From NCBI RefSeq assembly GCF_014204325.1, contig NZ_JACHKT010000024.1, positions 1 through 64,000 of the forward strand: DNA of 64,000 nucleotides. The letters are read 5' to 3'. Below, piece by piece: positions 26,426-28,876 of the stretch. The position numbers and the translations under genes were made by a program. The stretch is from Arcicella rosea. GTDB taxonomy: Bacteria; Bacteroidota; Bacteroidia; Cytophagales; Spirosomataceae. The notes under the pieces are model-generated. The model searched no databases. It worked only from the letters and a program-made list of their open reading frames with translations, and had not been told where the DNA came from. Every line of letters starts with the position of its first letter. Position 1 is the stretch's first letter.

Positions 26426-27532
26426 TTACACGTTAAAACGGAAGTGCATAATGTCCCCATCAATTACAACGTATTCTTTACCTTCAACCGATAGTTTACC
26501 TGCCTCTTTACAAGCATTTTCAGATTTGTATTGTCGGTAATCAGCAAATTTAATTACTTCTGCACGGATAAAACCACGTTCAAAATCTGAGTGAATAACA
26601 CCCGCAGCAGCAGGAGCTTTCCAACCTTTTTGGATAGTCCAAGCACGCACTTCTTTCACACCAGCCGTAAAATAAGTAATCAAATTTAACAAGTAATATG
26701 AACTACGAATTAATTTATCTAAACCTGATTCTGTTAAATTATACTCTTCCAAAAACATTTGACGGTCATCTTCATCTTCCATTTCAGCAATTTGAGACTC
26801 CAATGCTGCACAGATTACTACAACCTCCGCTCCTTCTTCAGCTACCGCAGCTTTCAATTGCTCAACGTATTCATTCGTGCCTTTAGCGATTGAACCTTCG
26901 TCAACATTGGCTACATAAATAACAGGTTTATCAGTCAATAAACATAAATCACCGATTGCTTCAAATTTAGCATCTGGCTCTAAACCTTGAACAGTTCTAG
27001 CAGATTTACCAGCTTCTAAAGTAGCTTTGTATTGTTGAAGAATAGCTAATTGTGCTCTAGATTTCGCATCACCAGCTTTGGCAGCACGTTCTACTTTTTG
27101 GATTTTTTTATCGACAGATTCTAAATCTTTTAATTGTAATTCATAGTCGATAATTTCTTTATCCGAAACAGGATTTACTCTTCCCTCTACGTGAACGATG
27201 TTATCATCTGAAAAACAACGAACTACGTGCAAGATAGCATCTACTTCACGAATGTTTGCCAAGAATTTGTTTCCTAAACCTGCACCTTGCGATGCTCCTT
27301 TTACCAAACCTGCAATATCCATAAACTCAATAACGGTTGGTAAAACTCTTTGAGGGTTTACCAATTGTTCTAGAATATTAAGACGTTCGTCAGGTACTGT
27401 AACGATACCAACATTAGGTTCAATTGTACAGAAAGGATAATTGGCGGCTTCCGCCTTATTTGAAGAAATTGCACTAAATAAAGTAGATTTTCCAACATTT
27501 GGTAAACCTACAATTCCACATTGAAGACCCAT
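26426..27532 (-). CDS. ychF: Redox-regulated ATPase YchF
   Basis: A 368-residue OBG-family protein, YchF/OLA1, which binds ATP and associates with ribosomes. The G1 motif is GLPNVGKST at residues 8-16. [20 protein letters not shown] is G3. The position of the normal guanine-specificity NKxD is replaced by YVANVDE, as in YchF. A TGS domain ends the protein ([30 protein letters not shown]). It starts 5 bases downstream of the Shedu-like gene and is therefore probably co-transcribed with it. Confidence 0.95.
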
Positions 27533-27537
27533 TTATA

Positions 27538-28170
27538 TTATTTAATAAATTGCAAATATTTGATAAGTTGTTTTAAATCCTCTAAAAGTTCATCATAAGT
27601 GATACAATGAATCTTTTTTGAATTAATGATAGTGTTGCTTCTACGCCAATCAAGCCTTTCTCTATCAATTATATTGTCTAACGATGTTGCTCTGCCAACT
27701 ATTAAAATTCCATTGTAACTTCTAATACGAGTACCGAATTTTCCTTCGAGAGAGCTTGTCTGTCTTAAATCTTCTAACTTCCAAAACCAATCTATTATTT
27801 GACTATAACCATGTTCAAATCTAACAGACCATTCTTTTTGATACTTTCCTTTCTTTTTCTTAAAAATACTATCTGACTTTCCATCTTCAAACTCCACAAA
27901 TATAAATGAAGCTTTTTTGGCATCACCAATAACTAAATCGGCTTTGAAGTCACCGAAAAAATCAAATTCATAAGAAATTCTATTGATTTCAGCTAAGTCA
28001 GGAAAGTAACATTTACCAATTAATGCAGATAAGTTAGGTGATTGTTTGAAAAATGGCAAAAGCTGAGAGGATTCCTCCAATTCTTGATAAGTAGTTAATA
28101 GGTTTTCTAAAGTAAGTAATTCTTTTTCTACTGCTTTCCAGTCGATATTAATTTCTCTAAAGTCTTTCAT
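27538..28170 (-). CDS. Shedu-type nuclease (DUF4263 / SduA-like)
   Basis: A 210-residue protein resembling the DUF4263 nuclease domain of the Shedu anti-phage defence system. Visible parts: an N-terminal FFKQSPNLSALIG segment, FKADLVIGDAKKASFIFVEFEDGKS (D78, E93, E95, K98) fitting a PD-(D/E)XK core, the SIFKKKKGKYQKEW region, and FEHGYSQIIDWFWKLED (Q124). It lacks the extra N-terminal sensing domain that longer Shedu proteins carry. The catalytic position reads EFE where the classic motif is E-X-K; K98 may take the lysine role. It lies 14 bases after a RelE-like gene and 5 bases before ychF. Assignment rests on remembered family patterns and could not be searched. Confidence 0.75.
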   Translation of the reverse strand: MKDFREINIDWKAVEKELLTLENLLTTYQELEESSQLLPFFKQSPNLSALIGKCYFPDLAEINRISYEFDFFGDFKADLVIGDAKKASFIFVEFEDGKSDSIFKKKKGKYQKEWSVRFEHGYSQIIDWFWKLEDLRQTSSLEGKFGTRIRSYNGILIVGRATSLDNIIDRERLDWRRSNTIINSKKIHCITYDELLEDLKQLIKYLQFIK

Positions 28171-28184
28171 TAACGCTCATTTTT

Positions 28185-28451
28185 CTATTTGCCAAAGCTT
28201 CCATTCAAAATAGCATGCACATGAAGCATATCAGGCTCTCTCTCAAAAATGACCTTATACTTACTTACATTCATTACATAGTATTTTTTTGAATCTCCTT
28301 CAATAGGTAACAATTCATAGCTTTGTTTTGGATTATTAGCCAAAACACTGTTTAATGAATGGTCTATTTCATTACGAGAGCTTTTTTTTAAGCTATCATA
28401 AGCAATTTCAGCAGCACGTTCCAGCTCAATATTTTTCAACAATCTTTCCAT
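28185..28451 (-). CDS. RelE/ParE-like small protein
   Basis: An 88-residue protein resembling the RelE/ParE toxin fold. The C-terminal half, LLPIEGDSKKYYVMNVSKYKVIFEREPDMLHVHAILN, matches the usual pattern of beta strands ending in V.H. The N-terminal half is a helical pair with ERAAEIAYDSLKKS. No antitoxin gene accompanies it on either side. It is the first gene of a likely operon with the Shedu-like nuclease and ychF. Whether it is toxic or acts as a partner of the nuclease is unknown. Confidence 0.65.
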   Translation of the reverse strand: MERLLKNIELERAAEIAYDSLKKSSRNEIDHSLNSVLANNPKQSYELLPIEGDSKKYYVMNVSKYKVIFEREPDMLHVHAILNGSFGK

Positions 28452-28473: not shown

Positions 28474-28501
28474 CAAAGTTACAAGTTTAATCCTACAACA
28501 A
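28474..28501 (-). promoter_or_regulatory. Likely promoter of the RelE-like/Shedu-like/ychF unit
   Basis: On the minus strand TAACTTTG (28474-28481) fits the -7 consensus TAnnTTTG. TTG triplets on the same strand lie 17 bases (28499-28501) and 20 bases (28502-28504) upstream, matching the -33 element. Transcription would start about 15-20 bases before the RelE-like start codon. Confidence 0.6.
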
Positions 28502-28506
28502 CAAAA

Positions 28507-28530
28507 AAGCCTCTGAAAATTCAGAGGCTT
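28507..28530 (-). terminator. Terminator of the DUF3276 gene
   Basis: An 11-bp perfect stem AAGCCTCTGAA/TTCAGAGGCTT with a minus-strand T-run (TTTTTTG) after it, 20 bases past the DUF3276 stop. Confidence 0.85.
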
Positions 28531-28549: not shown

Positions 28550-28876
28550 TTATTCCCATTTCAAATCACTACCAAAACCACCTACCGCATCTTCATCTTC
28601 ACGATTAAATTGTGTAAAATCTACATCTGGCAATAATTCATTTTTAACATGATTAACAGCTTCTTGTAGTCCTTCAACAAATTTATCAAAATCTTCTTTG
28701 TACAAGAACATTTTATGTTTTTCGTAAGCAAATCCATCATCTTTTTGATAACGGCGACTTTCAGTAATAGTAATGTAGTAGTCGTTTGAGCGGGTCGATT
28801 TCACATCAAAAAAATACGTTCGCTTTCCTGCTCTGATACGTTTCGAAAACAATTCTTCTCTTTCTCTTTCTTCCAC
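28550..28876 (-). CDS. DUF3276 (PUR-alpha-like nucleic acid-binding) protein
   Basis: A 108-residue protein of the DUF3276 family, a single PUR domain found across Bacteroidota and spirochaetes (Borrelia BpuR is a relative that binds RNA and DNA). Conserved elements are SKRIRAGKRTYFFDVKSTRSNDYYITITES, KHKMFLYKEDFDKFVEGL, and a C-terminal acidic segment (NREDEDAVGGFGSDLKWE). It probably acts as a small nucleic acid-binding regulator. Monocistronic with its own terminator. Confidence 0.88.
   Translation of the reverse strand: MEEREREELFSKRIRAGKRTYFFDVKSTRSNDYYITITESRRYQKDDGFAYEKHKMFLYKEDFDKFVEGLQEAVNHVKNELLPDVDFTQFNREDEDAVGGFGSDLKWE

Follow-up and report, generated by a model that had tools for sequence, protein, structure and literature searches.

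Type I and type II Shedus have been termed single-protein systems (PMC12409362), and PADLOC likewise treats Shedu as a single-gene system (PMC8565338). The stretch of Arcicella rosea DNA analyzed here (64,000 nt, hereafter the window) holds a Shedu-like gene of 210 codons that directly follows a small RelE-like gene and is itself directly followed by ychF, which raises the question of whether this nuclease acts on its own or as part of a larger arrangement and, in the latter case, which of its two neighbors belongs to it. The features of the locus are as follows.

26426..27532, minus strand: ychF, a flanking core gene outside the system, separated from the Shedu stop by 5 bp.
27538..28170, minus strand: short Shedu nuclease (SduA/DUF4263, 210 aa), assigned from PF14082, PADLOC SduA, the AF2 model, Foldseek and invariant residues.
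28185..28451, minus strand: RelE-fold partner (88 aa), a divergent and C-terminally short member of its family, assigned from a leave-one-out HMM, PHROG 1213, AF2 and Foldseek.
28474..28504, minus strand: promoter-like TTG...TAACTTTG of the Bacteroidota -33/-7 type ahead of the pair, a pattern match to the consensus only.
28507..28530, minus strand: intrinsic terminator of the upstream DUF3276 gene, with a 10-bp stem and a T run, kept in congeners.
28550..28876, minus strand: DUF3276 gene (PF11680, E 1.3e-35), a flanking core gene outside the system.

Read along the minus strand, the order is DUF3276, terminator, 88-aa gene, a 14-bp gap, 210-aa gene, a 5-bp gap and ychF, and an ORF check bore out the spacing given for the last three genes in the original prediction. 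The promoter-like element that had been reported 5' of the RelE-like gene was recovered as TTG...TAACTTTG at 28504-28474, a match of the consensus only to the Bacteroidota type, just past the DUF3276 terminator. The inclusion of ychF in the arrangement, on the other hand, did not survive comparison with other genomes. A regulatory or other functional tie between the pair and ychF would be in line with the 5 bp spacing, the shared strand and the probable co-transcription, but synteny speaks against it and we give it almost no credence, as ychF is present without the pair in all 18 relatives (seven congeners and 11 further members of the family), and no ychF was found near any other Shedu locus in the collected set. 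DUF3276 adjoins ychF in 17 of the 18, and in the congeners the junction contains the DUF3276 terminator plus a short spacer. Because the relatives keep this junction without the pair, the pair is a species-level insertion between the DUF3276 terminator, which marks its upstream border, and ychF, found in A. rosea only among the relatives examined. The gene ychF is a bystander that is probably now read from the promoter of the pair.

The identity of the 210-residue protein as a DUF4263/Shedu nuclease had been staked beforehand on a PF14082 match and a PD-(D/E)XK fold, and both were found. The Pfam family PF14082 (SduA_C) covers residues 35-196 with 97.3 bits against a cut-off of 27 bits (E 1.4e-27), and the PADLOC model PDLC00379 SduA (211 positions) matches the protein end to end, over residues 1-207 (E 3.9e-73). 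Neither phmmer nor a profile search returned a match between the 210-aa protein and the solved Shedus, so that the comparison had to be made at the level of the fold. An AlphaFold (AF2) model built from 29 relatives (pLDDT 91.7) has the PD-(D/E)XK fold of the solved Shedus, and its best PDB matches in Foldseek were E. coli SduA (8ps4, E 3.8e-7) and B. cereus Shedu (8ti9, E 7.1e-7), each with prob 1.00. Sequence and model together identify the product as a Shedu nuclease, with predicted cleavage activity. With a total of 210 aa and a nuclease domain that begins at residue 35, it lacks the N-terminal regulatory domain that is a trait of type I Shedus. The short Shedus share the nuclease domain, the fold and the conserved active-site D, E and Q with the single-gene Shedus (DUF4263/PF14082; B. 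cereus SduA 8ti8/8ti9 and E. coli SduA 8ps4), but differ from these proteins of about 380-400 aa in the missing N-terminal domain, in having E-x-E (29/29) for E-x-K, and in an obligate-looking upstream gene for a RelE-fold protein.

The exchange of lysine for glutamate, first noticed in the window as EFE in place of E-X-K, is real and subfamily-wide. Of the residues originally named, the 29 short Shedus compared all have D78, E93, E95 and Q124, while K98 was rejected as an active-site residue since it is not conserved among the relatives. Set against the pattern D...E-x-K...Q, the short Shedus keep D, E and Q and have E at the usual lysine position in 29 of 29 sequences. B. cereus Shedu reads E-I-K at this site, and in other Bacteroidota Shedus the position is K in 20 of 23 and E in the remaining 3; the lysine is typical of Shedus, not universal. 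E-x-E is found in active enzymes, e.g. BamHI, and is compatible with catalysis. The three other E-x-E Shedus of the Bacteroidota (L153, L154 and L155) are also relatively short (frames of 226-281 aa) and have no RelE-like partner.

The 88-aa protein had no match in Pfam and matched PHROG 1213 ('RelE-like toxin') with E 2.6e-4. Its AF2 model (pLDDT 83.7; both structures were predicted as single chains) gave Foldseek matches to RelE, YoeB and YafQ with a TM of about 0.7, and nearly all of its 50 listed PDB matches were RelE, YoeB, YafQ, ParE or HigB proteins. In the PDB, a profile made from its relatives has weak matches to YoeB and RelE chains (E from 0.007 upward), and a family profile built without the window protein still recovers it (leave-one-out HMM, E 2e-10). 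Model and profiles concur in assigning the protein a RelE fold and membership in the RelE/ParE superfamily. As no antitoxin-like gene was found immediately upstream, the first description of the gene as RelE-like and orphan holds, while the label 'toxin' is doubtful, given that the RelE catalytic positions are partly kept and that the gene survives beside destroyed Shedu genes (see below). The family is highly divergent (mean column identity 26%), with L21 (100%), D80 (92%) and R66 (85%) as standout positions and position 61 occupied by K or R in about 60% of the sequences. Not all of the residues responsible for RNase catalysis in YoeB/RelE are retained, and variation is seen both at the general base of the YoeB type and at the C-terminal His/Tyr. 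R66 and K/R at 61 are basic positions able to bind RNA in RelE toxins, and as most partners retain them, the family may have some residual RNase activity. Taken together, the partner shares the fold and some basic sheet residues with the RelE/YoeB/YafQ mRNA interferases, but differs from them in the missing antitoxin gene, a catalytic set that is not conserved in full and the linkage to a DNA nuclease. The window copy itself carries K in place of R66 and A in place of D80 (92% conserved) and lacks the conserved C-terminal segment, and may be degenerate or decaying, or else specialized.

Whether the two genes belong together was addressed by their recurrence. Single-sequence searches came up empty, both with the 88-aa protein in 99 relatives, plasmids and phages and with either protein in viral contigs, and profiles were therefore needed to detect relatives; an alignment of nine sequences proved too diverse to scan genomes with, and a narrower one took its place. 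The resulting 48 short-Shedu loci, three of them near-duplicates, come from plasmids, a Vibrio phage, viral contigs, one Bacteroidota genome and a genome collection (37 loci). In 47 of the 48, the Shedu gene is immediately preceded on its own strand by a small homologue of the 88-aa gene, mostly at a distance of no more than about 35 bp and very often with a 4-bp ATGA overlap, so that a conserved partner gene, which a single-gene Shedu would lack, is present. The lone exception is L050, where an ATPase gene separates the partner from a truncated Shedu. The pair occurs in cyanobacteria, Proteobacteria, Campylobacterota, Desulfobacterota, Planctomycetes, Armatimonadota and other Bacteroidota, i.e. 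in at least seven bacterial phyla, as well as on plasmids and phages, and the possibility, raised with the original prediction, that it is unique to this genome falls with these counts. The partner profile had no significant match away from Shedu over 536 kb of these loci. A second sample, 149 genomes of one cyanobacterial order, showed the partner just upstream in 13 of 13 full-length short Shedus; partner matches above 50 bits in these genomes lay beside Shedu genes or their remnants, with two exceptions, a broken copy and a match at the end of a contig, and the weaker matches were general RelE/ParE relatives. Among Bacteroidota PF14082 loci fetched from 296 genomes, a high short-Shedu profile score and a partner were found in the window and in L149 only, and 0 of the 28 other Bacteroidota Shedu loci checked had a partner within about 1.5 kb.

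These distributions bear on the simplest alternative, namely independent genes, in which an orphan RelE/ParE-type gene would hitch-hike beside a self-sufficient short Shedu. RelE/ParE genes are abundant and mobile, and annotation tools handle Shedu as single-gene (PMC8565338), but chance association would have to account for an order, orientation and spacing that are fixed across many phyla, specificity for one Shedu subfamily, co-divergence of the two proteins and strong partner matches that are essentially Shedu-adjacent only, and we regard it as very improbable. That the short Shedu and the RelE-fold gene form a real two-gene system, by comparison, is a conclusion that we hold with near certainty.

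How the two products work together can be approached from their evolution. Distances among partners and among Shedus co-vary (r 0.65 over 19 non-redundant loci), and none of 5000 permutations gave a value as high. With dN/dS at 0.14-0.36 in the partner and 0.08-0.15 in Shedu, both genes are functional and under purifying selection, and the higher rate is that of the partner, as would be expected of a specificity subunit. Broken copies occur on both sides: an Enterobacter plasmid (L012) carries an intact Shedu behind a frameshifted partner, L015 and L074 carry an intact Shedu with frame or stop lesions in the partner that are less clear than that of L012, and L087, L088 and L089 carry an intact partner beside Shedu fragments. 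Such copies in MAGs and draft plasmids could stem from sequencing errors; taken as they stand, neither gene seems to need its mate for host survival. As each gene survives breakage of the other, both an addiction pair and a partner in the role of essential inhibitor are disfavored.

The addiction pair would be a toxin-antitoxin-like abortive module, with the RelE-fold protein as an RNase effector that depends on the ribosome, is restrained by Shedu and is freed on infection. Its fold, with YoeB, RelE and YafQ as nearest structures, the basic residues at 66 (R in 85%) and 61 (K/R in about 60%), a toxin-first gene order that recalls HigBA, and the finding that RelE-family toxins differ in sequence yet stay active (PMC11090510) are all consistent with such a module. 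We nevertheless judge it distinctly unlikely: an unopposed toxin should not be tolerated, yet intact partners stand beside fragmentary Shedu genes in L087, L088 and L089; an invariant nuclease active site is unexpected for an antitoxin; and the YoeB-type general base and C-terminal His/Tyr are unconserved. The locus also departs from type II toxin-antitoxin systems in that there is no conserved upstream antitoxin and the partner persists intact next to Shedu remnants. An inhibitor or immunity protein that spares host DNA from Shedu would profit from co-translation, which yields matched amounts, and some Shedus are toxic in foreign hosts (PMC12904381). Intact Shedu genes with a broken partner in L012, L015 and L074 run counter to this role, sequencing error being possible there, and we consider it rather unlikely. 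The breakage pattern agrees more readily with an activator than with an inhibitor or a toxin.

Known Shedus detect DNA ends by means of an N-terminal clamp, and their nuclease is under the control of N-terminal domains (PMC12904381, PMC12409362). Because this N-terminal domain is missing from the short Shedus, a RelE-fold gene stands in its place and the gene order is that of sensor then nuclease, the partner may, on the simplest reading, act as a sensor or activator of Shedu in trans, a role that we infer with an evenly balanced degree of confidence. The computations establish the homology and folds of the two products, a gene order and orientation that are conserved, translational coupling in many of the pairs, the co-divergence of partner and Shedu, purifying selection on each gene and the insertion in this genome; complex formation, sensing or activation, DNA cleavage and defence are inferred. 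A horizontally mobile pair would co-produce a minimal Shedu devoid of an N-terminal sensor domain and a RelE-fold protein; the latter would bind the nuclease in trans, take over the sensing and gating performed by the N-terminal domains of single-gene Shedus, and recognize some nucleic-acid feature of infection; recognition would release DNA cleavage by the D-ExE-Q active site, with defence against phage or plasmid as the outcome. As a whole, a mobile two-gene anti-phage or anti-plasmid system, in which the RelE-fold protein senses for and gates a minimal Shedu in trans, is the best explanation that we can offer, and one that we moderately favor. More tentatively, the pair could represent a widespread Shedu subtype with a separate RelE-fold sensor, in which a toxin fold is reused as an infection-sensing, nuclease-activating subunit that perhaps reads RNA or the ribosome and couples translation or RNA signals to DNA cleavage.

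Among described systems, the short-Shedu subfamily is spanned fully by PADLOC PDLC00379, yet filed there as single-gene Shedu, and the partner is modelled in PADLOC only by a weak CARF-RelE match. CoCoNuT systems (PMC11090510), with their RelE/BrnT-like genes or domains, resemble the pair in that a RelE-fold protein is either encoded just ahead of a nuclease defence system or incorporated in it, but their effector is an assembly of McrB-like GTPase, helicase and HEPN, not Shedu. In the literature searched, which lay outside the main Shedu classification (Gu et al. 2025), no report paired Shedu with a RelE-like partner, and the RelE-partnered Shedu is provisionally regarded as a new arrangement. 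Since defence-finding tools score short Shedus as complete single-gene systems (PMC8565338), tests of the nuclease on its own would miss activity if the partner is needed. If the proposed mechanism is true, a separate subunit can take the place of the fused sensor domain in Shedu, and a toxin fold has been recruited into DNA-targeting immunity; compact natural pairs on plasmids and phages make both points directly testable.

The genomic surroundings of the pair were equally surveyed. Matches among 67 flanking proteins were no more than scattered (PD-T4-6, methyltransferases, CRISPR-associated PD-DExK); the defence-island context is thin and was not used as evidence. In Vibrio phage 10N.286.54.E5_PE002 (L009), the pair adjoins a gene annotated as Gabija GajB-like on the opposite strand, and the depositors annotated the adjacent genes as 'RelE-like' and 'Shedu__SduA'. 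On the Rhizobium rhizogenes pRi plasmids (L006:2208-2504 and L013), the partner is unannotated in the PLSDB gene table despite a 4-bp overlap with an annotated Shedu. A different, 227-aa Shedu with E-x-K lies right behind a 128-aa gene of unknown family in L163 (865-1941, oriented), perhaps another two-gene Shedu. In six cyanobacterial loci (L030, L032, L034, L039, L025 and L051), the RelE-like domain forms the C-terminus of a roughly 400-aa protein directly upstream of Shedu; this protein has an AHJR-like nuclease domain at its N-terminus and also shows a weak HEPN-like match with an RNxxAH stretch, and these loci possibly constitute a three-nuclease variant.
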